A stretch of 64,000 nt of DNA, taken from Psococerastis gibbosa. Taxonomy: Eukaryota > Arthropoda > Insecta > Psocodea > Psocidae. The notes beneath the pieces were generated by a model. It was given only the letters and a program-made list of their open reading frames with translations, ran no database searches and was not told the DNA's origin. A program made the position numbers and the translations under genes. The stretch spans positions 42,715,469 through 42,779,468 of the forward strand of contig OZ020485.1 in the NCBI GenBank assembly GCA_963971405.1, given 5' to 3'. Below, one piece after another: positions 19,048 through 58,737 of the stretch. Numbering within the stretch: position 1 is the first letter of the stretch; each line of letters begins with the position of its first letter.

Positions 19048-19076
19048 TTTATTTACAAAATGAGGTATTATTTATT
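19048..19076 (-). terminator. Poly(A) signals of GDA
   Basis: Two AATAAA motifs on the minus strand (19053-19048 and 19076-19071), about 200-230 nt after the GDA stop codon at 19279. Confidence 0.5.
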
Positions 19077-19278
19077 ATCTTTCGTGTCCAAGCGAGTCCC
19101 AAAATTGGGTTAAATTGTAGGAAGCACTGTTGGCTTCCCACAGCTCGTCTTTTATGCATTGGGCTGTACATAAGCTGCACTGGAACAAGTTGTCCACGTT
19201 CTGCCTCTGACCACACGAGCACATGGTGTTCTACTGTACTGTAGAGATCAACCATAACGAATTTGTTAAAGGTAAATA

Positions 19279-28689: not shown

Positions 28690-28876
28690 AAAAGAGCTAG
28701 AAGCCTTTGAGATGTGGTGCTCATGCTATGGTTACATGTTATGGTATTCATTCTGTGTGTGGTGCAATGGAAGATTCTTGAAAATATCATGGAGAGAGAG
28801 CATTATTACCAATAAAGACATGCTCCTAAGAATAGACGAAAAGAGATCTATTATTACCGCAATTGCAATAAGAGAC
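28690..28876 (+). pseudogene. LINE ORF2 fragment, left half, interrupted by giant element
   Basis: Encodes ELEAFEMW, then RRFLKISWRE, then LLRIDEKRSIITAIAIRD, the C-terminal part of a LINE reverse transcriptase also seen at 55535-56079. A ~45-bp insertion flanked by TGTGGTG splits it near 28725. The frame stops at the 9-bp ATAAGAGAC and resumes at 58590 with KWMGHI. Confidence 0.75.
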
Positions 28877-29231
28877 GAGACTGTGACATAACCTCGCCGG
28901 GCATTACATCGCTTGACAGTATAACGCCGGGCACTTCCTCGCGTGACAGAGCATCGCCAGACAAATCTCTCTTCTTACATTAAACCTAACATGGACAAGG
29001 CATGGCGTTTATGCAAATTTCAGTCACTGCATCGCCGGTCATTACCTCGCTGACAAGTACATCGCCAAAATTGAAATATCGGGTGTTGCATCGCCAGACA
29101 AGTCTCTTTTCTTACAATAAATCGAATACGGACAACACATCGCTGTTTATGCAAATTTTGGTCATTGCAACGCCGAGCTTCTCATCTCAACCACCAGGTC
29201 GCGACACTGCCCTCTCTTTTTAAATTTTTCA
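28877..29231 (+). repeat. Left terminal inverted repeat of giant element
   Basis: Composed of 14-17-bp units around a TCGCC core (CTCGCCGGGCATTAC, ATCGCTTGACAGT, ACGCCGGGCACTTCC, TCGCGTGACAGAGC, ATCGCCAGACAA). It also has a larger ~137-bp duplication: the GACAA(A/G)TCTCT(C/T)TTCTTACA block followed by TTTATGCAAATTT occurs twice. Such subterminal arrays often bind transposase. Confidence 0.8.
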
Positions 29232-32217
29232 AAATTGGCTCTGTGCAACTGAATACAAAATGGAATTATACGGTTTTGCCACTAGGCTGGGGGTGAGGCG
29301 GGCAAGACCACCTTTACATTATTCCTAGGCTTGCATAGTTTCATTTTTGTAGGATTTGTACGTACCGTAATTAGATAGGGAAACTATGAATTCAACTGAA
29401 TACTTATTGAAAGATCAAAGATGAGGCGATAGAGCGCTTCGATTTTTAGCCTCTCCCACTCTTGTTTTGAGCGCATATTCGGAGCACGCTCGTGTTTCGC
29501 TCCTCTCGCGATGTCATCTAAATTGTGTGTATCGTACATTTACATCATCAAGCTTGATAGGAGAATTGCATTTTTAAATAATTACTTATTTATACATAGG
29601 CTGTTAAAAAATTACCGTTTCAATTGGGCGGTGATATTGACTTATTGCAATGAACTACATAAAATATGTAACCCGGTAAGTAGGCTAATAAGTATAATAA
29701 TTTGATAGTAAAGTAAACTAAAAATATTTATGAGCATTTAAGAGTCTTAAACAATAATGTGCCCAGACTTTCGTGCAATCGATCGAAATTGGTCGAAAAC
29801 AGTTAACACATTACTGTCAGATTAGGTCAAATTGTTCGTTGGAGTATAAAATTATGGAAATAATATTGTCCTAAATGCACCGATAATTTTAAGGTTGCGC
29901 TTAACATCAATATGAGGGTAATAATCATAACATTGTAAAAGTAAAGCCTAGTTCAGCATGAATGTAACTCGCCTTCTCCAGGAGTTATAATTGCCTGCAT
30001 AGGGTAGTACTGCAAAATTAAGGCTCTGCAAGCAATGTATACCACAGGCATTTCTATCGCGGTGCATGCGCATTATGATTTCTCAGAATCGCGCCGTTTT
30101 CAAATTTTACTTGCGCTCATTTCGATACTAGTTAATTTGATTTAATCCATTAAAAATCATCACATTTAAACATTACACAACGTGAGGATCTTTGTTCATT
30201 AAAGAGTACCGTACTATGTAAGTACAGGAAAATGGAAATGAATAAAATAGAAAACTATATTAGAAAATAACATTATTATTGCATTTCGGCTAATTTTTCC
30301 ATTTCTAACTTGCCTGCAGCCTGCAGCATAGCCAATTTCTTTTGGATTAGCTAAGCCTTAAAAGTCTTTAGTCAAAATCAATAAATTCTTGGACTTTTGA
30401 TATCCGTGTAGCCGTGTGCAGCTTGTTTCATTAAAGGTTCCCGACGCTTACTAATTAGTATGCCCTAAGATAGTGAGTATGTTATCATTTTGCATATACA
30501 AGTTTTGGTGAGTTTCGAGGTTTAGCCTACAGCACTTAAGAGCTGGCCTAAATTTGAATCTGGCATGGTAACTATAGGCCTGAACATCAACCCTGATCGC
30601 CAGGCTTTTATATACAGTATGTACCGACTTCAATAGGTCATGTAGCCTAGTATTATCTTTTGTCATGTCATCTGGAAATAGAATTAAAATATTGCTTTTA
30701 GCAATCCATTCTATTTACCTTTATTGTATTACCGTTCGATTGCCTGGTCAGGAGCAATCCATTTGCCAGAGAATTGGATGACTAGCTCTATGATACGGAA
30801 GGTCAAAGGTCAAGACTTGCCTAGCCTGGGTCCAGCCAACTTTAAAGTGGGTTCATTGCTAGAGGTCAGGGGAAGAACGCGGCTGTTGGTCATGTTGCTG
30901 ACTGCAACTTCCCCAATAACGCAGTGGTCATTATATGGATCAGCCCACATTGGGTTGTTTTTTGTGTGAACCCCTATAGTGTTAATTACACCAAAATTGA
31001 ATACGGTATAGTCTTTGAATGCCAGAATTGGCAAATACTTTAAACTGACAACGGCACTTGACAATATAAATTATAATATGATGGCTCCTGAAAAAAAATT
31101 ACTAAATTCAATGGGCAACTCCCATAGACGAATAACTAATATGGCAACTCCGCCAACTCGCCTAGCTAGCCTACATAATACTATATTATATTCAATGCTA
31201 TGTCACATAGCGTATACGCATACGGTGCAAACCATTGACAAATAACTAACGGTGCAAACCCACCAGGCAGGCAGGCAGACACCAACGGCACCAGCAAATA
31301 CAGCCAATGCTCAATGCTCAATACAGGTAAAAAGTAAAAAATAGGGATATATTGTTTCCATTGTACTTTGTAGGGTGTTGGCCACTTGGCCTGGCCTTGA
31401 GGGTAGGAATGAGCGGCGCTGGTCCACTCCCTCCAGGCTCTAATTTTAGATTTTACCCTCCTGAATCCTGATTTTGAAGACGCGCGCGCCACGTTCCAAG
31501 TGGCAAGTTCCCTAATCTCTGTGCTCCTGCTCCCTGCTCCAGCGCCCCAGCGGGCAGCCCTTCCCGAATTTGGCGAATTTCCATTATTCCATTCCCTCAC
31601 CCTCTGGCAGTCTGGCTACCTTCACAATCCGCAATTTCGCATCGCATTTATTTTTATATTGTAGTATTAACGTCTATAACGATTACTTAAAGCCGTGAGT
31701 GTGTGATGTGTTCTTTCAGGACAACTATTGCGCTATTGCGCTAACTATTGATATAATGGGAAAGTTGTTCGTTGGCATAAATAAAGGTAAGTTTTTTATC
31801 ATTTTTTTATTATAAATATCCGGTTATACACGTAAAATACGTCATAGACCATATCATATAACTTATATAAGTTCTGTAGTCGCAGTCCCATAGACGAACA
31901 AGGATAGCTACGAAATTTTCTTTTATTTGTCGTCTGCAGGCCACCCTTCATAGGTTAGGTACCTACGCCTTGAGTCTTGACCGATGCAGGTTACATGCAA
32001 TGGTCAAACTAGGTAAAATAAAGCCATCCAATGGGCAAGTCTATGGCCGCCTATAATTTCTTTATTGATTGAAATATAATATAAAATATATATATAAATA
32101 AATATAATAATAATAAATAATATATGAATACCAAGACATGCTTGCCAAATACGATATAAGGTACTGTGGTCTGTGGGACGTGGGTCACAATGTCACATCC
32201 ACATTTTCATTATCGTG
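29232..32217. other. Left interior of giant element, no recognised gene
   Basis: Contains short open frames only (29511-29705, 30724-30969). A GC-rich stretch lies at 31380-31600 and a small ATG exon candidate at 31756-31786. No transposase, capsid, polymerase or other recognisable domain was found in any frame. Confidence 0.5.
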
Positions 32218-35200
32218 CAGGGCCTCCACTTGGTCACTTTTTCAACTATTGGTTACTTTTTTTCAATCTAGGTAACTTTTTGGTAACTTTTTTCATATTT
32301 GGTTACTTTTTTGAGGGGTTTTTGATATATTTTTATTTTTTTCAAGAAATAAAAATTGTTTCTTGCAATCACGTGCAACTTAAAATTTGGCGTCGGCGGT
32401 AATATTTAAAATGGTGTTGTGGGGTCTGCACACAGCAGTCTACACAAAATCCAAAAGCCAAACAAGGTCACGCAACCCCCATTCATAAGTGGCAACTCAG
32501 TACCTGTCGAGGCCTCGCTCCACCTCTCTGGAACTATCCCCTCGGCTTAGGTGCCCATTCCACATACGTACAACGTCAATGAAAATTATGAAATTGAAGG
32601 TGGTAGCAGAATTTTTAGTATGTCTTTAATGTCTCCTACCACCTTCAATTTCATAATTTTCATTGACGTTGTACGTATGTGGAATGGGCACCTTAGGCGG
32701 GTATTCCACATACGTACGTCAATGAAAATTATGAAATTGAAGGACATTTCAATTTCTCATTGATGGGGGCCATTCCATATGTTTTTTCAAAAATTGACAA
32801 TTTTTAATTTTTAAAATATGTTTGCATTTGTTTTCCTCGTCGCCTTATTATTTATTCCTTATTATAATTTTTATACAGAAATGCGTTATTTTTAAAGAAA
32901 TCAATTTAAATAGTTGTACTTGTCATATATTATCCCATGACGCCATTTTTTAATTTTAGTTTGTTTGTGATTTTACCAAAGAAGGAAAGAACTTCTAATA
33001 TTCTAATATTTTACTCTATGATCAATTGATAATTGATCAATTTTAACAATGGCATAGAGTAAAATTGAAATGTCCTTCAATTTCATAATTTTCATTGACG
33101 ATGTACGTATGTGGAATGGGCGCCTTATGGACATGGACTGTGGATTATCCGCTACAGTAGTCAGTAAGTGTTAAGTCAGTAACTGCGCTGTACTGTAAGC
33201 GGAGTTAGGGCTATAAAGCCCTCTCTTACAATCAACTAGGAGAGCCCGCGACCGCCTGCTTTACATGCCCTCCAAAGCATTGCGAGAAAATGCAGTGTAG
33301 CTCCTGACATATAAAAAGAGCAAGGCCGCCAGATATCCGGGTTTTCGAAGGCCATAGCCAAGGGGGATGGGCTTATTGGGCTGCAGCCCCCCCCCCCCAA
33401 CAGAAGTCTTATTCATTGAAATAATATTGCATTTCACTCAAAAAGGGGAGACCCCCCGGGGAAAAATTTGAAAATGAAAAAGTGCAAAAAAGTGGGCGGT
33501 TACATCAGGAAAGCTTGCAAAGGAATGGATATTCATATTGCTCCAAACAGGGGACCGGGGGTCTTCCCCGGGGGAATTTTTTTGAAAAAGTAGGTCCAAA
33601 AAAGTGAGGTTTTACGATTGTAACCGCAGTAAAGTTTATAATTTACTGAAGAAGACCCATTTATGTTGCCGAATTAGAATTATTTCATTCTCAACTTTTC
33701 ATTTCGGGGGGGGGGGGGGTTGGAGGGGGCTTATTGGGCTGGAGACACCCAGTCCCCCTGTTTGGAGCAATATTAATATGCATTCCCTTGCAAGCATTCC
33801 TTCTGTAAAACCCCACTGTTTTGCACTTACATTTTCAAATTTTTCCCCAGGGGGAGACCCCCGGGCTTGAGATAAATGCAATATTATTTTAATTAATAAG
33901 AATTCTTTTGTAAGCTTTGTAAATTCCATACTTTACTGCTGTTAAAATGCGTAGAACCCCACTATTTTTCACTTATATTTTCAAAATTTTCCGGGCCCCC
34001 CTCTTTGTGTTAACGATTTATTCCGCATACCCCAAAATATTATTAAAATATTATTATAAGCCTGTGTTCGCACCGAAGCTAAAACCTCTAATAAATTGCC
34101 TATGCTAAATCATATATACGAGTAACACACCTTAACCTCTTTAGAATACACGGGATACAATTAAATTCTCAAGAAATAAATTTACACCAGATAGGATCAG
34201 TCACCACAGCCACCCCCGAAAAAACTTCTGGCTACGGGCTTGGGTTTTTCAATGGCTTGTCCGGCTGAAAATTTGTGGACGAACCGGACAATGCAAAAAA
34301 CGAATAAAATTTATAACCAAAGTAATAAATAATTAATACAAAATTAAAAATGTTTTTTCCATGGCATTAACGTTGCAATTTTGATTTCAGTCACTTCATT
34401 AAAAAAAATACAGAAAATTCAAATTAAACTTCGTAAAATTGATAGTAATTATTATTGTACTTCCCTGAATCTGACAACACTGAAGAAGAGAGTTAAATTT
34501 CATAGGGCGTAGGTGTGCATGGAGTTGCAAAGTATCCCAAAATTGAAACACTGTCCTTAATTAATATAGAATTTTATTGCCTTACAAATTTCAAGTTCAT
34601 CAAAGTTCATTGATTTTATATTGCTTATTAGCGTATGAAACCCCTGACCAGGTTTTACAGTGATGTAACCTGGTTACTAAAAAGTCACTTTTTTCAAAGT
34701 TTAGGTTACTATTTCAACTATTTAGGATCAATTTTACGATGGAGGCCCTGCATTACGCATGGTACACACTAACATACGGCATGTGAATATAGAAACATGA
34801 AAAAGGAACCAGCTGGAGCATTTGAATTTCCCCATGTTCCCAGAAATATGTTGCCTTTGCCACCAAAAGATTGACTACACAAAGGCCGTAGGCAAGGGGG
34901 CTTATTAGGCTGCTGGCTGTAGCTCCCCTTTTCCGAAATTAAAAGTTGAGAAATAAATAAATCTAGTGCAGTGACATGAATATGCCTTCCTCTGTAAATT
35001 ATAATGCTTTACTACTGTTAAAATAGTAAAATCTCAATATTTTTCCTACCTATTTTTCAAAAATTAATATTTCCCCCTGGGTAGACCCCCGGGCAGCAAA
35101 CAGGGGGGTTTGCATCAATATGAATAACAATTCCTTCGTAAGCTTTTTAAAATCTATACTCTGCTTACTGTTAAAATGCGTAAACCCTCACTATTTTGCA

Positions 35201-38200
35201 CTAGCTTATAGTTTCCAATTTTTCCCCCGGGGGTTAAATCCAATAGTATTTCTATACAATCGAAACCGTTGTAATAATTAATTGCACTACGTTTTACTGA
35301 TTTAGTCCGCATAGCCGCAAAATATTATTTGCCTGTGTCTGCACCAAAGCTATAAGTCCGCCAATAAATTGACGTTTGATATGCCTTTCCTATTATACAA
35401 TATATTCGAGTAACACCATAACTTTACATAGAGAATACACACAGTATACAATTGAGCTCCCAAAAGACCATTTTACACTAGATAGGATTGTAGTCACCAC
35501 AGCCCCCCCCCTCCCCCTCACTTTCTTGTTGTGTTTTTTTTTTGGCAAATCCGACCCTGTCGATTCCTAATCTGTCCGTCACCAGGTCAGATTTTAAGTT
35601 TGAAAGACAATTGTAACCCCCGATTGCGCAATTAGAATGGTATTGATGCTGACGCTGTCTTGTTTGTTAAGGAGGGGTCAATTTAGTTTTATAGACAAAA
35701 GTCCCATAAATCCTTTTTCGGGGGGGGGGGGCAGGGCCATGAAGTCTACTCAAACTCAAAGGTACAGTATAAAAGTAAAAGTAATGCTAGTGGCACGGAC
35801 AAACAATTTTACTAGGCCTACTGTAAATTGTGTGGTGATCCCAATGCGTTTTTTTGGCTTTGGTTTCAGTATAATTTGTAATACCTTTTGATAAATACAC
35901 GCATTATTATTATTATTATTATTATTAGTTATTCAAGACGAGGTCCTAAATTAGGCCATTAAATTAGGCCTATATCATAAAAATATCTACTAAAATTGTC
36001 CCATTAATTCTAAATAAATAAGTGAGTATTTCTGTTAAATTATAAAATTATACTATCAAGTAATCAACACGTACCGGTTATTTTGGGGGGTTTCGCTCTC
36101 AAAAAAACTAAAAGAAAACGGCTAAAAAATTGTTTTCTCGAAAACGGCTCCAACGATTTTCTTTAAATTCACATAATTATATTGTAGTTTTCATTTATGT
36201 TAACAAAAGGCAATAGGCAGTAGGCCTGTGGGGGGGGGGGCTCTCCCCCGCGTGAAACATTTTGAAAAATAGAGCTAAATTATTGGGGTCTTACACATAT
36301 TGAGAGTAATACGTTTTATACTTTACGGGCAATGAATATATTGGCGAATAGGGGCAAGGGGGCCGAGGTCTCCTTTTTTTAATTTTTTTTTTTTTTGAAA
36401 AATAGGGCTGAAATAGTGGGGTTTTACGCGATTTGAGTGACTGTACTATAGTGACTGTACTATAGGATCGCATTGGCATTCCTCCCTGAAATGATTCAGT
36501 GTGCTTTAGGATCAGGTATTTCGAGGCAACCGAGATTTAACCATGGGAAAATTAATTACTATATAGACATAGTAAATAATATTATTTATCTCGGTACCTA
36601 TACTAATTTGATAAATAGGAAGGCATGTTTGATTAAAATCCGATCGTTTCTTTTATGATGGCGCTTTTGTTTAATTTTGCGGTGGTTTAGGATAGGATAC
36701 TCCCAAAAAATGTATTTTGCCACTGGATCTATGCACCATAATAGAGGTATTTATTTGCAGTTTTTAGCGTTCTAGACCCTATTATAGGCTATGTTAGGTC
36801 GAGAATGGGATTTTCGATTCACAAAAATTTAAAGCGTTTGATAGTTCAGAACTTCGAATGATGTCGGATCTCAAGGGCGTAGCCAAGATATATTTCCGTG
36901 AGAGGGGGGCCTGTGGCGACTGTGATCCTATTTAATCTAAACTGTTTTCTTGAGAACTCAATTGTATAGCTACTGTATCCTTTAAAGGTTATGGTGTTAC
37001 TCATATATTGCGTAGGCACAACAAACGTCAATTTATTGGCGGATTCAGCTTTGGTGCGGACACAGGCACAGGGCCGGATTTAGGCCCTAGCCTAGGGGCC
37101 TCCGAAGCCTTCCTCTGTGATTTATAAACTTTACTGCTGTTCAAATTTTTATCAAAACGTTTCCTCAGGTGGAGACCCCCCCCCCCCTGTTCGCCTTAAT
37201 ATGAATAGGAATTTCTTTGTACGTTTTGTTAAATCTATACGTTACTGCTTTTAAAATGCGTTAACCCCCACTGTTTCGCTCTTATATTTACAAAATCCCC
37301 CCCCCCCTACCCGGGGAGAACCCCGGGCGCCTCCCCCGGGCCCTCCTCTTTCAGTTAAATGCAATATTATTTCTGTACTATCTATATAGGTTGTTGGTTC
37401 GAGTCCTACACTTCCCACGTTTTCTGGCCATGCTTCGGAGGGCATGTAAAGCAGGTGGTCCCGGGCCTTCCTAGTTGAGTGTAAGAGAGGGCTTTATAGC
37501 CCTAACTCCGCCAGGTTGGCTTAGTATTAGAACAAAAAGAGTCCTTATTTATTTTATTTGTATACCGTCATACTGAAATCGTTGATATTTGGTCCGCATT
37601 TCGGCAAAATATTATCTGCCTGTGCCCGCGCGAATGCTATAAATCCGCCAATAATTTGACGTTTGATGTGCCTATTCTATCATGTATCAAGGCCGTAGCC
37701 AAGCCCCAAGGGGGGGGAGGGCTTATTGGAGTGCAGCCCCTCCCCCCGAAATGAAAAGTTGGGGGAATTAAATAAATTTAATTCGGTAGCATGAGTACGT
37801 CTTCCTCAGTAAATATAAACTTTACTGCTGTTAAAATCATAAAACACCACTATTTCGGAGCTATTTTTTCAAAAAATTTCCCCGGGGAGACCCTGTTTGG
37901 AGCAATATGAATATGCATTCCTTTCCAAGCTTTCCTGCTGTAAAACCCCATTGTGTTGCACCTACATTTTCACATTTTTCCCACGGGGTTAATTTTTATT
38001 AATATGCATTCTTTTGTAAGCTTTGAAAAATCCATACTTTACTACTGTTAAAATGCGTAAAACCCCATTATTTTGCACTTATATTTTCAAATTTTTCCCC
38101 CGGGCCCCCTCTTTGGGTTAAATGTTTATAATAATTTATAATACGTATTTATAATACTTTATAATGGTTTATTCCGCAAAATATTATTATATATAGCTTG

Positions 38201-47200: not shown

Positions 47201-50200
47201 ACTTGTCTGGGCCTAAAGCCGGTCGCTGGGGAGCCACAGCCCGGAGCCTGACCAACTAGGCTCCGGTAGCCGCCTGGATTTCGGATAGGCGAGATGGAGT
47301 GAGCCATGCATATTTTGACCTACCTACGGCCTGCCTAGGGCCTACTACACCCTGCGGAGTATGCACTCTCTGCGCCCTGCACCTACTAGTGGAAGCCGAG
47401 TACCCTGCCGTGAGCTCTGGTCCGTAAGCTTCTTTTCTTTTATATAATTTTCCAGTTCGTCAATTTTCCTAAGTTCTGGGCGCAATTTTGCTACCCCCTA
47501 CATTTCTAAATCATTTAGTCCGTACGTAATTTTGATGAGCTGTCTGTCTTGTCATAATCAGCTGATGACACTCCTGGAGCTGTCAAACTTCGGGAGCCTG
47601 TTCATTCTTGTTCTAATTACAACATGGTGGTCTAAGAATAGGGACGCTGGGTGTTTGCAGCCACTTTTGGAACCGTAAAATTGAGGCGTGTGACCCGATC
47701 CTTGCCTACGGGAAAGGGGCACGTTTACCGGTCCTTGTTTGGCAGTAATCATTCCAAAATTGTAGGTTGGCGCCCCGGGTTCGTGTTTTGATTACATTTT
47801 AATAAAGAGGTCTCTGGTTTGGCGCAAAAACGCAGCGTCTCTGTGCTTAGATCACCAGGTTGTCAATGTATTGTTTTCACTGTACTTACCGTAGTAATTT
47901 CGTTTGTCACTCTCACATTATTTTTGTTTTGTTGCTTTTGGAAAAAGCGGAAAAGTTTCCCGGCTGGGTTTTTCCGGTTAATTTTAAAATAAAATAAGAG
48001 CTCCTCTGGTTCGGTAATCTTGTTGACTATTTCGGCCATATTGGTTTCTATTGCCCCGTCTAAGACGTGGTTTTAGCTTAATGCACCCGCTACTGTTTGG
48101 CGCTGTTTTTCAATTTAAAAATTATTATTGCACTGTATATTTTGTTGCATTAGAAGAGAGATTGTTGTCGCAGATTTTGTCCAGGTTTCTTTCTGACCTT
48201 AACGCTCCCTGAGTTGAGTCTCCGCATGAGGAAGGATGCGGCTCTAGAGTATAGCGCCCCGCGATCTGGGTTTCTGTCAGATTCATCGGGAGCTTGACCT
48301 CGGTAGCTGCATGTTTCCCTAGTTGTGTTGAGTAGTTTGAAGCCGGAGTGGGATTAGCTTGGGTGTCGTCTGAGCTAGCCCGTTTAATTTTCGTATCACC
48401 AATCCCAGGCTAATCAGGCTCCGGGCTTCAGTGTCTTATCAGGACCGGTCATCCGTTAGAAAACAGCTACCTTCTAGAGTAGCCCTAAGTAGTTTATTTC
48501 ATTTCCCTAAGTTCCCGAATCTAACTTTCCTAAGTTAAGCAAGCATAAACATCACAAGCAGTTTTATTTAATAAGAATATAGCAGATGTACGAGTATGAG
48601 TAACAGAAATGAACATTAAAGTTTAATTTCACATTTGACATATATGAGGGAATTTTACAAAATTTACACTAGATAGAATCACAGTCGCCACAGCCACCCC
48701 CGAAAAAAAAGTCCTGGCTACGGGCTTGGTCATGTACCTGTATACGAGCTAGTTGCACCATAACTCGTAAAGAAGACACAGCATACAATTGAGTGATCAA
48801 GAAAACAATTTACTCCAAATATAGAATTATACAGTCGCCAAAATGGCAAAAATTCCTAGTTACGGCCTTGGCTCGACCTGATCATCCTGACAAGAGGCAT
48901 TAAAAGAAGGAGAATATATTCGAGGGCGCAAATTCTTCAACTTGCCACCAGCGCTAAAGTACCTCGGCCCGGCACTGCCCCTAGGCACAGTTCTCTGTGG
49001 GGGCCCTCCCAAAAGAAGCAGCTCCATTGGCTTTCCTTCACTGTTGCACTGCAGATGTAGAGTACAGTAGGTATTAGGAAAAGAGGGAGCAATAAAAATA
49101 AGAGCATAATACATGTCCTTACATTTCATTTTGGTAACGGTAACTTGTCACTGTCACGACACTAAATTTCCCACCATAATAAAAATTGAAAATTATTTTT
49201 GTCATAAGAAATTTACTTATTTCTTACTTTTTAAATTCGCTTTTTTTAATTTTGTGGGCCCCTTTCGTGTAGGGGTCCCTAGGCAGCTGCCTACTCTGCC
49301 TATTCCTAAATCCGGGCCTGCACAGGCAGATAATAATTTGAGACTGTGCAGACTAAATCGTAATGTTATCATTACAACGGATTTGATTGTATAGAAATAA
49401 CTCCCCCGGGGGAAAAATTTGAAAGTACGTATAAGTGCAACATAGTGGGGTTTTCAATAACAGTAAAGTATAGCTCTAGATTTTACAAAGCTCAAAGCTA
49501 AAAAAGGAATGCTTACATATATATTGCTGTAAATGGGGGGGGGGGGTGTCTCCTACGGTGGAAATTTTTTGAAAAATACGTATGTCCGAAATATTGGGGT
49601 TTTACGATTTTAACAAGTAAATTTTACAATGTTAGGAAGATATATGTAGGTATTCATGTGACCGTACTAGATTTGTTAAATTCTCAACTTTTCATTTCGG
49701 GGGGGGGGCGGGGGGCTGCAGCCCAATCAGCCCCCCCACCTTGCCTACGGTCTTTTAGGGCCTATTGTATTTATTAGGCGGCGAAAAAGTAAGCTTGTTT
49801 AATTTACATCTTTCGATTTAATAGCAGTTCGGTTATTACGTGGAGTTTAAATAAATAAATAAAGGTTATCTCTTCAACCAAAGTTAATTAAATGTCAGTG
49901 TTGTATACACCATATTATACTGCAATATAATATGTAATTGCATGTCCCTTTGAGAAATGTTATGAAGAAGTTATGAACCACGTTTTACAAATTCATTTCG
50001 GTTCAAAATCCAAAAGAACTCGTATAAGATGAGGATTGAGGTTGAAACTAGAAACTGAATGTTGGTATTTCAGAGTTCAGGTAGTTGGTACTTGTTAGGT
50101 ATACATGAAGCGTAGCAACGGCGCAACGCAGGTCAATCCCATTCACCATTGTACTAATTGTTTACCGTTATCCAGCTTGGCAACACTGCAGTACAAGACT

Positions 50201-52206
50201 ACAAGATTGTATATACCAATTACCAGGGGTGTTTGACAAAAAGGAGGGTGGCGGGTGCATTGTGCTTGTGCATTCCTTTTTGAAAACATTGTATCCGGCG
50301 TCACCTGACACCCTAGATAAACAACACCTTGGCCCTTGTTTCTACACTATTAGGGCTCTATATTAGGGTATATAGTGCCTTATACACTATATATCGTTGT
50401 ACATGTACTGTCCCAGCCATTATCGAAAATCGAAATTAAATGTTTGTTGAAATGGAGTGTAGGACCAAAAATAGATATTTCGCACACACCCCAGGCCCAT
50501 AGACAAGATTAGTGTCCACTACCCACCTTCTTTTGAGCAAGGCCCGTTTTTACAGATGAAGGAATCGTTGGCAAGGTAAACTAATAATTAAATGGCTGAG
50601 TCAGAGGAGGGACGACACGAACGGGGGAGTCCGAGACGTCAAGTGCGTAGACAGTTCTCAGGCTAGGGGCAGGGGCACCATTAAGGGTCGTTGGATTTTT
50701 TCAGTGGAGGTTATCAGCTCAATAAGAGGGGGGTTTTGAGTGTAATTTATGATGAGGGTACCCCCACCATACAATTGTATGCATTTTGTATAGGCGCGCC
50801 TACACAATTTGAAAAAAGAACATTCCAAGGAAAGTCTTATAGAAATGCCAAGCAGGGAGTCCAGCAGGCCCGTTCCCAAGGGTGAGCCAAAGGGGCCATG
50901 CCTCCCCCCCCCCCCCAATTTGATAAAAAAATAATTAATAATGTAAGGGTTTTAGCTAAAACTACTAAAATCACTACGGATGTACCTATCATTTATAAAA
51001 AAAAATTGAACTTGCCCCCCCCCCCAAATTAAATTCTGGGTACGGGTCTGAGTCCAGGGTACGCCTCTCTGATTTTTTTATTTTTTTTATAAATATATGA
51101 TTATGGAACAGTGGGGTTTTTCGGATGTTGACATCATTTTTTAAATAGACCTGAAATAGTGGGACCTAACACATTTTGAGAGCAGTTTAGATTTGAGTGA
51201 CGAAGGGTTATGATAAAACGATGTTATGATCAGCGACTTCGGTGGCAAGGTGGTAGCATGCTTGTACTTGTGCGAGTCTCTACACACCTTGCGGTCGGAG
51301 ACGTTTTGCGACTCGACACAAGTACCTACCTATCAGGTGACTTAGTGAGGCTATTGAAGAGGTTAATCGAATACATTCATTAAATTGCTTAAGTACGCGA
51401 TTTAACCTTTTTGTAAAAAAATTTCAAATCATTAGAATAGTCCTGAAGCAGTGGGAGTTCGTTTGCACATTCCAAGTTTAGATTTGACAGATGACTTATT
51501 AAAATATTCTAAATAGGGGATTTAAAACAATAGTGGGACTTTGCGCAATTTAGTAGGCCTATAGCAGCCAAATGTATATTTTACAAGAATTTTATTTTAT
51601 TTTACCATTACCCAGAAGCACTAATTTTTCGTTTGTATGAATTAGGCCTATTTGTAAATTTTATCTATGCCACATTTTCGGGGGAGGGGGTATAAACTCC
51701 CAGAAACCTCCTAAATCTACCAATACATTGAGAATTGATCCCCATCCCAGCTTTAGAAAAATACAAGTACCGGTATGAAACATTTTGACTACGAAAATAT
51801 TGGGCTCAAAGCATTTGTAATAACAATAACATAGGCTATGTCATATGAATTATCCATAATTTCATCAACAATTTATTTTTTAATGAAAACCAAATTTGGG
51901 CAAATTCATCAAAAAAAACCCTATCTAGTGTTAACTCGTCAAATCTTTAGGGGGGGGGGTCGTGTTAATTAATTGTAAATACCGTCATTGATTAATTTGA
52001 TTACCGGTACTGTAATCATAATTATTATGAAACACATTATTGTACAAAAACTATTAAATAAAACTGCTCGGTAGACCTAATTTATTTTTCTTTTCCTTGC
52101 AGGAATCACCGGAAGCGACCAGGACATGATTGTTTTCCTCAATGTTGAAGAAATTAATACTACCTATTCGGGCGATAGCTTACGAACATACGAACAAGTT
52201 ATTTAG
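31756..52206 (+). CDS. Candidate two-exon micropeptide gene inside giant element
   Basis: ATG exon 31756-31786 (MGKLFVGINK) ends AAAG|gtaagt. At 52103 a strong acceptor (ttttccttgcag) starts an exon whose frame continues in the matching phase (1) for 33 codons to TAG at 52204-52206. The predicted product is 44 residues (GITGSDQDMIVFLNVEEI in its middle) with no recognised family. The intron would be 20.3 kb and span the gypsy insertion. Both splice sites are strong, but so short a product could be chance pairing. Confidence 0.18.
32550..32692. mobile_element. PIF/Harbinger-like MITE, family B, TSD TTA
   Basis: 143-bp palindrome, GGTGCCCATTCCACATACG to CGTATGTGGAATGGGCACC, with TTA at 32547-32549 and 32693-32695. 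It is nearly identical to 15312-15454. Confidence 0.82.
32696..33124. mobile_element. PIF/Harbinger-like hybrid MITE sharing a TTA with its neighbour
   Basis: 429-bp element starting GGCGGGTATTCCACATACG and ending CGTATGTGGAATGGGCGCC. It has family B termini but the AT-rich loop of family A (GCCATTTTTTAATTTTAG, ATCAATTTTAAC.ATGGCATAG). TTA at 32693-32695 and 33125-33127. The left TTA is also the right TTA of the preceding copy, so one inserted into the other's target duplication. Confidence 0.75.
33190..33285 (-). repeat. SINE fragment (reverse)
   Basis: Reverse complement of the body of the SINE at 3155-3375 (TTAGGGCTATAAAGCCCTCTC ... TTTACATGCCCTCC). Confidence 0.55.
33347..34242. mobile_element. 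hAT-like repeat with AAGGCCRTAGCCA termini and G/C tracts
   Basis: Starts GAAGGCCATAGCCAAGGGGG and ends CTGGCTACGGGCTTG, with similar flanks (GGTTTTCG / GGTTTTTC) consistent with a decayed 8-bp duplication. Inside, a ~130-bp module recurs in both orientations (TTTACTGCTGTTAAAATGCG, ACCCCACT.TTTTGCACTTA, TTTTTCCCC.GGGGGAGACCCCC). Homopolymer G or C runs are frequent. Confidence 0.6.
34751..36872. repeat. Fragments of the G/C-tract repeat family
   Basis: A second left end (AAAGGCCGTAGGCAAGGGGG, 34882) is followed by the same ~130-bp modules up to ~35500. Then come C-rich (35505) and G-rich (35719, 36229) runs, an (ATT)n microsatellite at ~35907-35929, and a block at 36125-36170 that is the inverse of one at ~21990. 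No coding sequence was recognised. Confidence 0.5.
37388..37563 (+). repeat. tRNA-derived SINE with intact B box
   Basis: GTTGGTTCGAGTCCTACAC contains a canonical B box. The body (GGTCCCGGGCCTTCC, AAGAGAGGGCTTTATAGCCC) and AT tail match the copies at 3155 and 58738. The 5' A-box part is truncated. Confidence 0.65.
38314..40499 (+). repeat. 5' LTR (2186 bp)
   Basis: Starts TGTAATGATTTAAAAAAC and ends TTTTTACA. It matches the 3' LTR along its length with a single T-run indel noted at the end (TTTTT vs TTTT). About 2.2 kb is long for gypsy LTRs. The short antisense frames in it recur identically in the other LTR and show no domain. Confidence 0.92.
40502..40519 (+). other. Primer binding site candidate
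   Basis: TGGCGCCTACGCGTTTGG begins two bases after the 5' LTR. TGG at the start pairs with a tRNA 3' CCA. The primer tRNA was not identified. Confidence 0.65.
41176..43047 (+). CDS. gag: Gypsy Gag polyprotein
   Basis: 623-residue structural protein of the retrotransposon. The N-terminal ~160 residues are mixed. Residues ~210-340 are Pro/Gln-rich with repeated QPPRATV-type units. A capsid-like region follows (~360-520: FSGRGDPEDFLVDFERQ, LLSGTAKTWFEVH, LVRNNLLPLYREKL), resembling retrotransposon Gag capsids. A CCHC zinc knuckle starts at residue 535 (CFNCDSPHHFFKDC), followed by a second Cys/His cluster (CRYCGKKG...HHEC). It ends at TGA 43045-43047, overlapping the pol frame. Many antisense frames over it are shadows. 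Confidence 0.9.
   Translation: MKTFRSFLQQINYDALLELATELQQLRPDFAFDMNGPFTALRREVWDAVRDNPDVLLHISGIENLPLTDPADHIVSLSAPTVEPPQTLLDYAGVPGADLQPEFANTAVLRTTFSAVPEVEQEGLNTLLAALKQCERQFAALQPGSDTLRSPLFSVHKRVREQRVHTSYAQGHTSLSMQETTEQAASQGRSPWSLRGLAPTQPLPPPQPFDPPTVASQQPSQPMPPEWNAPLRQQTAQQPPRATVPQPPSRATVPQQPLPQWNVPPQQPTTQQPPRATVRQPPHQQLPQDWHAPQQHRSTHHPPPQMPPGPQQPPPWQQQGPSSGRHSASDPSGNSADLGDYRRTLVKFLGVCRSREIAFSGRGDPEDFLVDFERQAHLFGLPMELIYPCLVDLLSGTAKTWFEVHLPDLTSWSQARGEFLEAFTVVRGDAARLQEILSEKMTPGQRSVEFLANIRSRFRKVSVQFDEATMVNLVRNNLLPLYREKLIFADVSSFRQLEAACAKIEATMNMGQPKLQYVSVADTDGKLEAAAVNLCFNCDSPHHFFKDCGAARRVFCRYCGKKGVDEHHECPQSQRAKRWKSAQRGSSDNTDPKADMLALQRALAALTLKVEALMELKNDQAKQ
42882..46385 (+). CDS. pol: Gypsy Pol polyprotein (PR-RT-RH-IN)
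   Basis: Open frame of 1167 codons. The translated part probably starts at the frameshift (~residue 49). Aspartic protease: DTGANSS at 118-120. Reverse transcriptase: LLIDYRQLN, VIDLRDAYYSVP and YFDD at 457-460. RNase H: RTDASNVG with Asp607, and ITDHSP. Integrase: zinc-binding HDEAGH (His821, His826) with CKLC, then a D-D-35-E core of Asp889, Asp950 and Glu986. A KYKGPYKI motif near the C-terminus is the GPY/F module, and no chromodomain follows. All catalytic residues are present and no stop or frameshift was seen. The RT YFDD is a mild variant of the usual Y(I/V/L)DD. Confidence 0.92.
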   Translation: MPAKSEGETVEVRSTRIQRQHRSKGGHVGLTTRLSSPYAEGRGLNGIKKRSGQAVSPDGSGPLRRPLEMDPLHPEFTEYIKDYTFPAPEHIELACVGPVERLFLHIKIGETFFPTLVDTGANSSLISAPYWDILVTSGFRVTPTSGRVKLADSSSHAELVGTAWLRVQVGSRMVNHRFYLLKGLRQPCLIGIDLLLKLKASIDVAGRLLVLQPLPPQTLPEEIRLVTYPELTLAGVEICEADLQLATGDDEVRIEAGSFTYPMTPEQVSRAVDLIQYWHEAFKSSTGKTSAGQLKLYPDLSLPPVRVRQFRLPPENEKRAAQICKDLESRGILERGESEWNSPAFLHINYARNKQRLLIDYRQLNARLRRTSSISPDINQIIESIQDAFVLSVIDLRDAYYSVPISPESQDYTAITVAGVQYKWKYCPLGLAVLPDKFSEIIHSILGKFKHRGLYIYFDDCLVATKTVEEHAELLRDVFAALRESNLIINKKKCRYFQQSVKFLGVKLENNTISPDEDKIEAIRSIVQPRTQKQVRQFMGCINFFRRFIPKLGEVARPINDLLKKGVTSLQWTDERVAAFQQIKDVLCSRPVLGTPDFKLGFQIRTDASNVGISAVCTQVQNNSIVVISYASRPLKPSEQRYSAVMRECLAAIFGLEKFRIYLLGSPPDQRNKLITDHSPIPWLLAVTKGGSGGSKLNKGEGNSLLQRWVVRLSSFMFHVQFTPGVENGLCDLLSRNPYEMDAEDDDPIMASLEIDETKAHVDSWYEELVRKVTAHPDCYPSFQIANGKLFKQITDPVTKREVIRRVVPGHERARILKACHDEAGHMGAKKTAHRILEAWYWPGVLLDCKRYCKLCQQCARFKPNLQGPVGEMKLKPPTPKPFATVNVDLLGPYPTTHPYRHKYIFVLVDQFTKFAYVRPIKAATTAACIQILERDVLPAHSAPEILISDGGSCFTSADFQQWCQQHSIAHHVTPRFAPWENGAVEVLNKPIKTALAIYMKGKHNEWDKYLPLIERALRSVPHSTTGFSPAKLLYGHELRPLFPSSSPLQDGNGQDIEPHVYFQDKQEDLEKIYNKAVQVVLKHKETQARVYNLRRKKSPYVPGMLVWVKAFPQSSKIQQIVGSLQPKYKGPYKIAQLAGTNQVILETLKGVNAGRHEINNLKPAFL
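43023..43029 (+). promoter_or_regulatory. Candidate -1 ribosomal frameshift site A AAA AAC
   Basis: In the gag frame the codons are TTA AAA AAC, so A AAA AAC sits in the correct phase for -1 slippage, 16 bases before the gag stop. The -1 frame is exactly the pol frame, which is open from 42882. A downstream pseudoknot was not modelled. Confidence 0.7.
46463..46471 (+). other. Polypurine tract
   Basis: AGGGGGGGG four bases before the 3' LTR, the expected primer for plus-strand DNA synthesis. Confidence 0.7.
46475..48659 (+). repeat. 3' LTR (2185 bp)
   Basis: Duplicate of 38314-40499, starting TGTAATG and ending TTTTACA, followed by the AAAT target copy. Confidence 0.92.
49754..50864. other. 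Giant-element interior, little recognised
   Basis: At 49845-49935 a reverse copy of the TTAACTTTGGTTGAAG flank of the tRNA-like foldback repeats is present without the tRNA-like part. Otherwise no feature was recognised. Confidence 0.45.
50865..51050. mobile_element. Short hAT-like MITE, TSD AGTCCAG
   Basis: 186 bp, CAGGCCCGTTCCCAAGGG to CTGGGTACGGGTCTG, with AGTCCAG at 50858-50864 and 51051-51057. It contains two C runs, each followed by AAATT-type sequence. A related right end occurs at ~18087. Confidence 0.65.
51058..52102. other. Giant-element interior, nothing recognised
   Basis: AT-rich with a G run near 51950. It ends in a strong pyrimidine tract and AG at 52101-52102, the acceptor of the candidate exon at 52103. 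Confidence 0.4.
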
Positions 52207-52494
52207 GGAAATGAAGATATGAAAAATTTCGGGCCAGATTGGAATTCTAACAGCCAAGCCCCCACCTTGCCCGCGAGAGAGTGAATGGACAAAATATATA
52301 CAGGTTAACATTAACGGGTAAGTGATGAGCGTAACATTAACAAGTCCTCAGATGGGACCCAAAGTATTTCAAAATAAAACGAGTGACATTAAGTTTCATA
52401 AAGTTAATAAGGTGGCTATTGTGTATAACTGCATAAATTGCTTACACAATTATTTTGTTCAATATTCGATGTTAGCATTTTCATTGATATATGC

Positions 52495-53336
52495 CAGTAG
52501 TTCCCAAACTGTACACCGCGGTGCCCTAACTATAAGGCACCGCGACAACTTGCTAGGGGCACCGCGGCGCCATGGGATGAATTTAATTCCAAATTTAGAC
52601 TAGGTGAAACATTAATAATCGATAATTTAAAAATATAAATGTATTTTCTTTTTCTCTTAATCTTTGCCTCTAAAATCAAAGTGTTACTGCACTCAAAATG
52701 CGTAAAACCCCAATATCAAAGCCCTATTTTACAAAAAATTTCACCCGCGGGCGACCCCCGCCCCCCCCCCCCCTCGTTCGCAATTATACTAATTGCTTGT
52801 AAAATGATGTTATTGCTGCTATCAAAATGCTTAAAATCAGACTAATTTATTTCAGGTCTGTTTTCTCCAAACTTCTCCCCCGTGGGAGACCCCCTTCATA
52901 TCTCCCGAACCCTCTGGCTCCTGCGCTAAGGACACTTAGAACATTAATTTAAAAGCTGCATACGTCCATGAGGCTCGTAAATCCCATTAAAATTTGATAA
53001 AATTAAATGGTTTTATGACAATATAGTTCTGTGAGAATAGAAATAATTATACTCTCCAACTTGCAAATGCAGTTTTGTGTAAGAAAGGGCCATTGGCGCT
53101 ATCTACGCTGTTGAATAAAGACGATTTGTTGATATTTTTATTATTATTTAAGCCCAAGTTCATGATATCGAGGTGTTACAAGTATTTAGGATAGGTTCAA
53201 AAAGGTAGGGTCGGTAGGATTTGTTCGTATGTAGACCTACATGTACAATAAAGAATATATGCAGTCGGGCCATGCTGGGCACCGCTTACTAAATTCCTGT
53301 AAAAAAGGGCACCGCCTTCAAAAAAGAGAACCACTG
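52495..53336. mobile_element. hAT-like element with CAGTRGTTCYC termini
   Basis: 842 bp. It begins CAGTAGTTCCCAAACTG...CGCGGTGCCC and ends GGGCACCGCC...GAGAACCACTG, the CAGTGGTT(C/T)(T/C)CAA terminus common in hAT MITEs. The flanks ATATATGC / ATATACTG are only partly alike. It holds another G/C-tract module at 52690-52900. Confidence 0.6.
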
Positions 53337-55534
53337 ATATACTGTAGGCTTATAGCTTAGAAGCTTACACTGCAATACACATTCAAAATTCTTACTCTCA
53401 CCCTATTATCCCAATAAGGCTGCATTTATTGTCATTACGTTAAAAAGTATAGGCTAGTATGCCATATCCATAGATGCTGTCTTACATTTTTTTTCACGAC
53501 GAACAGTACCGTACTTCGAAAAGGGTGAAATTCTCTAAGCTAGTGTATTTTTGCTATGGGTGTAAAAAAAAGAGGGAAATTTGATTTTTCTAATTTTACT
53601 GCAACCTTATAAATAGGTCTACATCACAATGGCACCGCTAACAATTAAGGTGAACTTTTTGAAACTTTGCTATTAGGTATACTGCTTGCGGCCATTGAAA
53701 TAGGCTATACTGACATTAATAATGCTGGAATTGCAATTGTTTCAGATACTTGGATTGTCATTTTAGTGCTAGAATGGAGGACTTCAGGTGGCAAGGAAGA
53801 CCCCGGAACCTGTGGAGAGACGAAGTGGAATGTGACCGTCAAAAGATTTCAGTTGCGGCTATTTTTATTGTATTGTAGAAACCATCAGACCAAAGTTTTG
53901 AGTAAAATATTGGATAGGACTACTGAAATTGTAAAAAATATTATTGTTATTAGCCAATGCGGTATACCGAATGAAAACTAATGTATAATTAAACTACAAA
54001 TAAAATTTGCGCGCCATGAACAATTACCCGAAGGGTGTATTAACTTTAAACAAGTTATATTATGAGACTTCTGAGTTGCTTAAGATTAGCCATTACCCCG
54101 TAGAATAAAATTAAGCAGGCATCCAATGCTTTGCCAAGGAATTTGGAAAGGGGGGATCTGTCATTAGTACAATACTTATACGAAATGTTGTAAAATTATA
54201 GCCTATGTAGTCAAGTTCCAAGTATAAGTAACTGATACACATGTTAAACCTGATTGTGTTTTACTCATTTTGAAGCAGTAACGTGAGGTTTAATTTCTAA
54301 CAAATGAAGATTTGTATAACTGCAAACACGAGGGCCCGATGCCCGATGGTGCCCCTGGAGAAATTGTTTGAACAAAGTGGCCTGAAACATTTTTGTACGC
54401 TTTTTTTGAAAGAGGAATGGGGATACACAGCCATCACCATTTCTTTGTGTAACCTGTTTACTCTAAGTTATTTTGAACAAACTGTTATCCGTAGCGCATT
54501 GGGCCCGTCTAAAACAGTTCACTTATATCTTCCTGCTAGGTACTTTATTTTCTATGTTAATAAGTTGAGAAGTGGGTTAAATTATACATCATGCATTAAA
54601 ATCAGTTAATTGTAAGAGTGGGCGGAAAGGACAAAAATGGGCTTATAATGAAATTAAAAATAATGTTATTTCTTTCTAAAATGGCATAGCCTACTTTGTG
54701 TACTAGGTGAACGCAATAACGTAAGAGCTGGCCAATACTGTCGTGCTAAGCTAAAAGACCCTGATCTATTTTCCATTTTATATTTTGGCATGTTTTAATT
54801 CCGATGAGGTATACACATCTTTCCAAAGCGCAATAGTAGGCCATAAATAAAATTATTTCCTGACACATTCGACAATTAGTGTTTGCCTTAACATGAGTAT
54901 CAGATTGTTAATGTTGAAAGAATACATTATGAATCAAAAACAACGCATAGACACCTTTTGTTTGAGACCGGGAAAACATTCAGGCGTTTAAATTAAGAGT
55001 CATTAAGCTAAACCGCCGATTATTATTGAAGCAATCATAATTTAAAACCAACTCCTGACAAAACTTTTATAAATAAATCAGATATTTTCATTTCAAATAG
55101 AATGACCGATACATGGGGCTTCTTTCTCATTTAGCGTGGTTATAGTTGAGTTAGCGCATTCTCCTCTACTTCGACATTGCATTAAAAAATCATGGGTAAT
55201 ATCGAAAGTTAGTGTGTTCACTGTTCAGTCCATATCTCGCAGCAGGAAATTGTACAAAAATTCAGTCAACGTACCCTAACTCCATTTTCTTATAAAAAAA
55301 AAAACAGTACATTCATGATTAAAAAACTATTTCCACCAACCAAAAGTCCTCTCAAGTGTCAAATCTCTGATTCATATTAACAAAAACGTTTTTTTCGTTT
55401 TTATGGTTATTGTTAGGTTAAGTTTAGCTCGGCAGAATAGGCCTAGGTGAATCTTTTTTGTTTTTTGCTGCAGTAATTTTTTTTATAATGAGCTGTTTAG
55501 CCAACAGTATAATCTATGTAATTGTCTTTAACAT
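53337..55534. other. Giant-element interior, unrecognised ORFs
   Basis: Two ~100-codon frames (53667-53981 and 54304-54609) have no recognisable domain and no supporting splice or start context. They are treated as chance. Confidence 0.4.
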
Positions 55535-56079
55535 GTAAAGTTGAAGGTGTTTTTGGGTACCCTATCAAGTCTTACTTAGCCAGACTAGCTTTTAACATAA
55601 AGTCAAAGATATTCGAATCTAACAACATCGACTTGGAAATAAGGAAAAGACTTCTCAAAACTCTAGTGTGGAGTGTGCTCTTGTACGGAAGTGAGACATG
55701 GTGCATTTACGAACATGAAAACAAAGCTGGAAGCCTTTGAGTTGTGTTGATACAGAAGAATCATGAAAATCCCATGGAGAAACGACATAACCAACGAAGA
55801 TGTGCTCCATAGAATAAACGAAAAAAGAGCTATTATGGCCACCATTTCAACAAGAAGAGGCAAATGGATGGGGCATATTCTGAGACACGAAGGGCTCCTC
55901 AAGAGCATCATTGAGGGTATGGTTGAAGGCACCAACTCAAGAGGACGAAAGAGGAAGGAGTACCTAGAAGATGTCATGAAGGACCTAGGGTGCGCCACCT
56001 ACAAAGAACTAAAAAGGACCGCACAAAACAGACAAGAGTGGAGGAGAAAAATAAAACATTCGCTGCAAACCAATCCTTA
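55535..56079 (+). pseudogene. LINE ORF2 C-terminal fragment inside giant element
   Basis: Encodes RKRLLKTLVWSVLLYGSETW, then (after a frameshift and a TGA replacing the usual Trp at ~55757) RRIMKIPWRND, RRGKWMGHILRHEGLL, and RGRKRKEYLEDVMKDLGC with a terminal EWRRKI. Same family as the LINE copy that the giant element interrupts. The stop and frameshift show it is dead. Confidence 0.75.
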
Positions 56080-58234
56080 GATTGCAACTCAAGAATCAAG
56101 TCTCCTGAAAAAAATCGTGTCAGACTTTTATGCGGCCGTCACAGAACGAGTGTATTTTTGTAAGGTGTATGATATGCTTTCTACCCACCTTTGCCTGATG
56201 ATATATCTTGTTATTCTTGTTTCTGTTCAGTATATTTTTAGGTTGCTCAAATTGAAGTTATGTAGGTCACCTTACGCTCTGGTATAGGTAGGTACAGTCA
56301 AAACAGCAAACATACAGTATGTTACAATATAATATACCGCAGAATTATAAGAATGCATTTTTGCACTATTTACAGCATCTATGGCAAACAAGGGGAATTT
56401 AAGAATATATTTGAATAGAAAAAAACAGCAGTAGTGAGGGTAATGTTAACAAAGAGTAGTAGGGAAAAGAAAGATTTCTTCCCATGAATTTAAATTTGTT
56501 TGTTAAAATGGGTGAAAAATGACAGTAGAATGTAACTTCATGTTTAGTGATGCCGCGATTAGCAGTACTCGTATTATTATAAGTAGTAATCGGATGTCTG
56601 TTGGCGTTCTGGCTTTTGTAATCGACAGCTAAGACACTCATATTTATTTATTTATTTAATTCATAACAATACAAAACGTATTGTATTATTATTAACCTAT
56701 ATTGCAATTTTAAACTGTTGTTGATATGCACAGTTAGGTGAAAGAGAGGGCCATAGGCTCATAGCTCATAGGCAGTATATTATGATTACTTATGATGACG
56801 TACAAAACTCAATCGGTAGTTCAAATAGAACTCAAAAAGCAAATAAGCTCAATATGATTTCATTTCCACTCTGGGCTAATATATCCTATTTAATAATATT
56901 TAAATGGAGTCCCATGTGGTAAAGTGGGAAATAAGCTAAAATGAAACTTTGGAAGTGGGAGAATCGTTATAACAATTCAGTAGCCTTACGTTTTAAGTAT
57001 AACATCTGTCATCTTCATTATGTCATAAGTTTTACCGTCACTGGTATAGCCTACCTTTAATAATTTATTGTCAAACAATAGAAAAAAAAATACCGAAATA
57101 TTTGTTGTGGCATGCGTATTTCTCGTACCTGCTATGTAAGAACTTATACTGCTGTATATACTGTAAGTAAGATTTATTTCAGTATTTCAGGTTCTATTTA
57201 TTTGTATATATATTGAATATTAAAATGTCATGTAGGCTTAATCTGTTTTAGGGAGATGTATCTACCTATTGAGATGGCGACCAATGTTCGGCAACTTTCC
57301 AAAAATATCATCACACCTTTTCATTTCATGACCCCCTGAGCCTAAAACCACCCTCCGTCCAACAGTATATATAATATGTACTGTATATGTATGTTTAGGA
57401 AACACTCTAACTTCCGAAAATATTATCTGACTTTGATGAAACTTGGCACAAAAATTGATCATACAAATGTCATGATGGATTTCGTTAACCAGCTACAGTA
57501 GATCCACTATTAAGTTACAAGATGGTGGAATGAACTAAAATCTGACAGAAACTCGTATTATTATCTACGATAATGGTTATCAACACTTTTTACGACAAAT
57601 CAACGATTTCAAGATGACATCCATTCAAAGTAAAAATAATTTATTATAAGTAAAAGTTCGTAGTCGTCATTGTTTGGAACACAAGAGTGTTTATGTTGTG
57701 GTCGGAAAAATAATGAAGTAGGCCTACTTTTAATTTTTTATTGCATACATAGCGTACAGTAGGTAGCGTAGAAGAAAAGCAGGGTCTGCGGAATCTCACA
57801 ACTCCTGATCGGCCAGAGCCGAAAGGGATTTTTTACTGCATACCGTAATAAAACCATATTTCGACAGTTTTTTGTAGTTATTGAAAATCCTACCATCTGC
57901 ATGACAGGAGTAAGGCAGGCTCGGAAAGCGATTAGAATAGGTACACATTATAGTCAAGAGAGGGTCATACTAGCAGCATAATATGATTAAAATAGCATCG
58001 CGAGTTGCTCATAATTGAAGACCCTATCGTAACGAAGCATAACCCTGATGGAACCCCCCCCCCACCAGAAGCGTTACGCAATTTATGGATGCTCCCTAAA
58101 ATGAAAACCTGATATATCCCAAGTATATTCCCGGTATAGAGTTATGAAACATTATAAGAAGACAACATTACGGGCATGTTTTGGCTTAGGATTAGACTGC
58201 CATGATCCAAAATCGTGCGACAGCCCTTGTTTTA
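56080..58234. other. Right interior of giant element, nothing recognised
   Basis: AT-rich non-coding sequence with no repeat family or protein recognised, apart from a short C run near 58047. Confidence 0.45.
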
Positions 58235-58589
58235 AAAAAAATGTAAGAAGAGAGGGCAGTGTCGCCACCTGGTGGTTGAGATGAGAAGCTCGGCGTTGCA
58301 ATGACCAAAATTTGCATAAACAGCGATGTGTTGTCCGTATTCGATTTATTGTAAGAAAAGAGACTTGTCTGGCGATGCAATGCCCGATATTTCAATTTTG
58401 GCGATGTACTTGTCAGCGAGGTAATGACCGGCGATGCAGTGACCGAAATTTGCATAAAGGCGATGCCTTGTCCATGTTAGGTTTAATGTAAGAAAAGAGA
58501 TTTGTCTGGCGATGCTCTGTCACGCGAGGAAGTGCCCGGCGATGTACTGTCCAGCGATGTAATGCCCGGCGAGGTAATGTCACAGTCTC
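58235..58589 (-). repeat. Right terminal inverted repeat of giant element
   Basis: Reverse complement of 28877-29231 with scattered substitutions, ending CACAGTCTC directly before the second ATAAGAGAC copy. It diverges inside 58235, where an A-run replaces the left arm's sequence. Confidence 0.8.
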
Positions 58590-58737
58590 ATAAGAGACAA
58601 ATGGATGGGGCATATTCCGAGACATGAAGGACTCCTCAAGAACATTATTGTGGGCATGGTCGAAGACAACCATTCAAGAGGACGAAGAAGAAGAAGGAAG
58701 AAGTACCTTGATGATGTTACATGATATTATGTCAGGA

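Follow-up and report, generated by a model that had tools for sequence, protein, structure and literature searches.

A multi-copy family of giant, apparently non-coding transposons with Mutator-like termini in the genome of Psococerastis gibbosa

We analysed a stretch of 64,000 nucleotides (the window) of contig OZ020485.1 from Psococerastis gibbosa (assembly GCA_963971405.1, positions 42,715,469 to 42,779,468), which contains a 29,713-bp element bounded by terminal inverted repeats (TIRs). This element is one copy of a recently amplified, multi-copy family of giant TIR transposons. The family is real: precise ends and own target site duplications (TSDs) at many unrelated sites, by which class II TIR transposons are recognised, were both found in the genome. 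The reading we favour, with a probability of roughly 0.6, is that of a giant class II family that is apparently non-coding and non-autonomous, is moved in trans and is most Mutator-like in the form of its TSDs and TIRs. The element is most likely non-autonomous because it has no recognisable gene.

The window copy had the structure of a single insertion. Its TIRs matched each other with 96.3% identity over 353 nt in a single ungapped BLAST block and were flanked on both sides by ATAAGAGAC, identical at 9 of 9 positions, in agreement with the paired TIRs and perfect 9-bp TSD of a preliminary description made from the window alone. Joining the flanks restored one continuous frame resembling that of a long interspersed nuclear element (LINE; ...ITAIAIRD joined to KWMGHIPRHEGLLKNIIVGM...), and this result, together with the pairs of termini with their own TSDs found elsewhere, bore out the single insertion event proposed there. 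The labels LINE, gypsy and miniature inverted-repeat transposable element (MITE) come from reading the sequence and its frames and from the preliminary description rather than from a library. In the interior, a gypsy-like element of 10.35 kb separated a 9.1-kb part of the body on the left from a 9.6-kb part on the right. The gypsy-like element was bounded by long terminal repeats (LTRs) of 2.19 kb each (38314-40500 and 46475-48660) that were 99.95% identical, contained long frames read as gag- and pol-like (41155-43047 and 42882-46385) and was flanked by a probable 4-bp duplication, AAAT; LTRs of 2.19 kb are unusually long. It was absent from that point in all six other copies that were fetched and is thus a later insertion, which makes up 10.35 kb of the total of 29.7 kb. 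The unusual size claimed in the preliminary description therefore stands for the family, which mostly measures 18.9-23.9 kb, and not for the figure of 29.7 kb, which belongs to an inflated copy. The body holds MITE-like repeats, several of which recur in the window outside the element, and a LINE-like fragment that was found in five of the six fetched copies and was largely absent from the sixth; a stretch of it (55855-55959) was 85% like the target LINE-like frame. A repeat with words of the CCCCGGGGGAAAAATTT type occurred in several copies at 33400-38300 and 48660-52770 and, within the window, matched only inside the element; similar words were also visible at locus L072, outside the family's body.

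The window's own assembly (409 Mb, 68 contigs) was searched for the family with a 24-nt terminus pattern, allowing at most 3 mismatches. The pattern occurred 80 times, 42 times in forward and 38 times in reverse orientation, and its reversed form, used as a control, did not occur. A TIR query gave 146 candidates, the best 40 of which all matched over the full length at 96-100%. When neighbouring forward and reverse termini less than 60 kb apart were paired, 24 convergent pairs were obtained against 0.23 expected by random placement (maximum 3 in 2,000 trials), and 32 termini were left without a partner. The pairs comprised 22 of 18.9-45.1 kb, spread over nine contigs and including 16 of 18.9-23.9 kb, and two under 1 kb; no pair found by the 24-nt terminus measured between 1 and 18.8 kb. 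Of the 22 large pairs, 19 had an exact TSD: it was 9 bp long in 11, the window copy included, as the preliminary description had stated for that copy, and 8 bp long in the other eight, so that 9 bp is not a fixed length. The large pair at C1:8118207 had a TSD matching at 7 of 8 positions. No TSD was detected at C3:3324302, the first element of a tandem, or at C2:20686061-20709975, where the alternative left partner at 20676499 gave no exact TSD either. Over all 24 pairs, 20 had exact TSDs. The number of termini, the excess of pairs and the exact TSDs at the large pairs exclude a chance origin of the structure seen in the window. A 22-nt TIR word had no exact match in the viral contigs.

One of the two small pairs (L070, 962 bp) had a 353-bp left TIR and a 123-bp right TIR with its own exact 8-bp TSD, which suggests that the TIR ends alone are enough for movement; the other (L071, 552 bp) had no exact TSD. 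The 39-kb pairing at C3:3324302-3363452 (L058) was rejected as one element, since it proved to be a direct tandem of two giant elements. The second of these lacks the first 83 TIR bases, there is no TSD at the junction, and the first element taken alone (to 3343169) has none. Variant termini such as GAGACTGCGACATTTCCTCGCCGG were seen at C19:3576193, C19:3601714, C19:3626434, C3:18622994 and C12:23639162; none was paired, and the TIRs behind them were more diverged where read (L072 and L073).

The long interior was propagated together with the termini. Six copies fetched in pieces were 97.5-99.7% identical to the window over 16,949-19,315 of its 19,367 non-gypsy positions (counting aligned bases only, and excluding gaps as well as BLAST blocks below 88%), and the copies on contigs C3, C15 and C19 were 99.6-99.7% identical to one another. 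A 261-bp marker from the left body had 28 matches at 96-100% among the best 40 of 60 candidates. For 27 of these 28, a right body was located on the same strand at a distance of 14-43 kb, the right-body set being 34 places from 70 listed rows after short pieces and matches of 78-81% were left out; TIRs at both ends were checked for part of the 27.

Some unpaired termini resembled scars. The inner 400-1600 bp were fetched for 20 of the 32 unpaired termini, of which 11 had family body inward and nine did not, and the ends were read for the four of these nine that had an exact terminus. At L126 (C2:40935294-40935754) a 26-nt TIR stub lay between copies of an 8-bp flanking word, and at L128 (C13:12811434-12811894) a 76-nt stub lay between copies of a 10-bp word; the chance of a repeated flanking 8-mer is about 0.006 per locus. 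Stubs at L124 and L130 had no repeated flank. The sequences at L126 and L128 fit what excision with incomplete repair would leave, and deletion after insertion is an alternative origin for them.

No coding capacity was recognised in the body. With stops read as X, the 12 translations of the window body matched no Pfam family at E ≤ 1, while in the flank the same scan detected NeuB (1.9e-56) and SAF, with Amidohydro_1 just under the cut-off. The proposal of about 19 kb of largely unassigned DNA apart from the gypsy-like element thus held for 19.4 kb common to six copies. Among seven copies, 825 of 19,367 positions varied, with 389 transitions and 418 transversions at two-state sites. Codon periodicity was absent from these 825 sites (top window chi-square 8.0 versus a median maximum of 10.7 in 50 randomisations), a test of limited power at 2% divergence. 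In a survey of frames of at least 130 amino acids (aa) in the fetched pieces, no frame longer than 150 aa was shared. Among the unshared frames were two that read as LINE-like, 718 aa long at L021 and 283 aa long at L011, and several more of 131-177 aa.

The termini are of the kind found in Mutator-like elements (MULEs). Such elements have TSDs of 8-10 bp, as do the 19 large pairs with exact TSDs of 9 or 8 bp, and TIRs longer than 100 bp with subterminal repeats, as does the 353-nt TIR with its 15-bp repeats. Since these features match insect MULEs, at least one known superfamily has a comparable structure. Elements of the hAT, KDZ and P superfamilies have a fixed TSD of 8 bp (or 7-8 bp) and were rejected, 11 of the 19 exact TSDs being 9 bp long; the preliminary description had likewise set the 9-bp TSD against hAT. 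Merlin elements have an IS1595-type transposase and an 8-9 bp TSD, and the corresponding domain (PF12762) occurred at three genome loci, each more than 1 Mb from any copy. A 694-aa frame matching the MULE domain at C2:3793905 was considered as an autonomous copy and rejected, the nearby giant copy ending at 3783776, 10 kb off. At this locus (L057, C2:3790000-3798999) the frame is clustered with frames of 350 and 275 aa; the former is presumably mariner-like, and the label of the latter is likewise presumptive.

Several results weigh against the favoured reading. The MULE transposase domain PF10551 had 15 matches in the genome and none in the translations of the window body; none of the 15 loci lay inside the 27 tabulated copy intervals, and no TIR-like stretch at E < 0.05 (best 0.055) was found in the flanks that were read, those of 11 of the 15. 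No recognisable transposase was therefore found, as the preliminary description had claimed, and neither an encoded transposase nor the same TIRs on an autonomous MULE could be shown. With no transposase tied to the family, its assignment to MULEs comes from TSD and TIR form, and we therefore call it MULE-like in its workings rather than an established MULE. A gene that has diverged strongly or is finely split could escape the Pfam scan, and the sole gypsy frame included in the control for that scan gave no match. A frame of about 130-146 aa on the minus strand (window 31181-31615) was common to several copies and is possibly coding; part of it falls in a 500-bp bin that ranks among the most variable. 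A second set of related loci implies that parts of the interior are old enough that they could once have been coding.

This second set comprises 17 loci that match parts of the body at 70-90% (13 from left-side queries and four more from right-side queries). Seven match window 29521-31202 at 81-82% (one from 29637 on), and six of these also match 31615-32212 at 70-71%. With the 261-bp left marker (window 30654-30914), 12 second-set matches were obtained at 90%, clearly separated from the group at 96-100%. At ten loci there are matches to 53650-54565 (87-88%) and to 54581-55264 (83-84%). Left (30654) and right (53650) markers were found together, in the same order and strand, at six of the 17, spaced by 10.04-10.09 kb in five and by 11.85 kb in one; in the window without the gypsy-like element the spacing is 12.65 kb. 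The set looks young because identical scores were shared by 10 of 12 matches to the left marker and by 6 of 10 to the right-side query. It may include an autonomous partner of the giant family. The shared body parts, the ordered markers and the apparent youth would also suit an autonomous giant element, with a transposase too diverged or too split for Pfam, that the family represents or recently derives from and of which the second set would be the intact form. We consider this unlikely: the window family shows no Pfam domain, codon periodicity or shared frame above 150 aa, the second set had no PF10551 or PF12762 match closer than 395 kb, and a query from the right end (window 56160-58236) had no match at these loci among the best 40 of 3,832 candidates.

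Other explanations of the size and the repeats fared worse. The nested gypsy-like element, together with retroelement-like frames (named by reading) in the sampled extra sequence of the 41.5-kb and 28.9-kb copies, might suggest that an originally small TIR element reached 29.7 kb through nested insertions at the window site only. Nesting does account for the difference between 29.7 kb and about 19-23 kb, but the other 19.4 kb, repeats included, is common to six copies elsewhere with their own TSDs; for the 19-kb body this explanation is refuted and we give it hardly any weight. Polintons (Mavericks) are similar to the window element in size and TIR length and have TSDs of 5-6 bp. A decayed Polinton or other virus-like giant element is nevertheless very unlikely, since the TSDs of the family are 8-9 bp, as the preliminary description had argued from its 9-bp TSD, and no Pfam domain was found in six frames of the body. 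Segmental duplication or an assembly artefact could produce long near-identical blocks and the tandem pair on C3, but the 19 pairs with exact TSDs stop at the TIR ends, have differing flanks and carry their own 8-9 bp words, and the large pairs lie on nine contigs; this origin is refuted for the family and retains practically no credibility. The unit of the family measures about 19-23 kb where later insertions have not enlarged it, with 353-bp TIRs made of 15-bp subterminal repeats and TSDs of 8 or 9 bp. Under the favoured reading of a non-autonomous class II family, a transposase encoded elsewhere would bind the TIRs and move the element in trans, and the length of the TSDs and the architecture of the TIRs suggest that this enzyme is Mutator-like. 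MITE-like repeats and the LINE-like fragment were already present in the interior when its copies began to spread, and the interior was multiplied as one long body. A broader proposal, which we offer tentatively as possible rather than probable, is a giant DNA transposon lineage, perhaps comprising two or more many-copy families, with either a transposase of a new kind in the interior or a DNA transposase that routinely moves gene-free cargo of at least 20 kb.

Table 1. Coordinates of the window copy, its target site and the second set of related loci
Feature	Position	Strand	Remarks
Target: left half of interrupted LINE-like frame	28756..28867	+	
Left copy of 9-bp target duplication ATAAGAGAC	28868..28876	.	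9/9 match with right copy
Left TIR, 353 nt, starts GAGACTGTGACAT	28877..29229	+	largely 15-bp subterminal repeats of CATCGCCGGGCATTA type
Left body part	29230..38313	+	mosaic of short interspersed repeats, found in other copies too; no Pfam domain
Nested gypsy-like LTR retrotransposon, outside the family unit	38314..48659	+	missing at that point in 6/6 other copies
Right body part	48660..58236	+	common to other copies; no Pfam domain
LINE-like fragment within body	55522..56080	+	named by reading frames
Right TIR, 353 nt	58237..58589	-	BLAST match to left TIR
Right copy of 9-bp target duplication ATAAGAGAC	58590..58598	.	
Target: right half of interrupted LINE-like frame	58599..58725	+	
Second-set loci, window's own assembly (G000)	C1:5252279-5265234; C1:3778896-3790652; C3:740721-755440; C12:30895197-30906948; C2:49212156-49223903; C1:6210018-6222931		and 11 more

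Two features of the window neighbourhood were also recorded. A neighbouring exon encodes part of a sialic acid synthase, as confirmed by a search of solved structures; its top named matches were in insects (58%, Nilaparvata lugens), and another protein matched at 60% (best 120 of 6,460). A tRNA-Ala prediction at 62852-63299 lies inside an inverted repeat pair with relatives at 2370 and 10650, and may be a tRNA-derived short interspersed element rather than a gene.

Non-autonomous DNA transposons are usually short, and the efficiency of cut-and-paste transposition is thought to drop with length. Pack-MULEs generally measure a few kb, Foldback macrotransposons reach 100 kb or more, and the giant transposons Teratorn, Starships and Polintons encode a recombinase and further genes. 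The window family falls into the size class of these giant transposons and of enlarged CACTA elements. The MULEs of Aedes aegypti (Muta1 and 13 further families) are alike in their 8/9-bp TSDs and long TIRs with short subterminal tandem repeats: all 14 families have TSDs of 8-9 bp, 12 of the 14 have TIRs over 100 bp, and 10 of these 12 carry subterminal repeats of 9-15 bp (PMC5225508). They also include non-autonomous members with heterogeneous interiors that are moved in trans; Muta1, in contrast, measures 3.2 kb and encodes a transposase (PMC5225508), whereas most members of the window family span 19-24 kb, and neither a gene within them nor a linked transposase was found. Complete arthropod MULEs can likewise have long TIRs (13-1193 bp) but measure 1.4-10.0 kb and encode a transposase by definition (PMC13359780). 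Plant Pack-MULEs share the non-autonomous state and the foreign DNA between MULE TIRs; they differ in that they carry captured gene fragments (PMC6431247), whereas a 19-kb body was amplified here as a unit. Enlarged CACTA elements measure 16-20 kb and have 4-5 open reading frames (PMC6431247). Foldback, Galileo and Tetris of Drosophila also have long, internally repeated TIRs, but Galileo is a P-superfamily element (PMC4079207, PMC3573991). Large retrotransposon derivatives (LARDs) are alike in having a large interior without coding sequence of its own and in being moved in trans; they differ as class I elements with LTRs, the DNA between which rarely exceeds 10 kb (PMC6431247), and the window family would be a class II counterpart about twice as long. 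No giant non-autonomous DNA transposon family of this kind was found in the titles and abstract openings covered, subscription papers and Repbase reports being outside that scope, and the titles returned for giant or large non-autonomous DNA transposons concerned work on Teratorn and Ectocarpus only.

Giant families of this type can be overlooked in repeat annotation, since each has the appearance of a mosaic of smaller repeats. The family makes testable the limit on cargo size of MULE-type machinery, what keeps the giant form intact, and the shuffling of 20-kb blocks. If gene-free cargo of at least 20 kb is routinely moved, the family would be the class II counterpart of LARDs and would represent a new size class of non-autonomous TIR elements.

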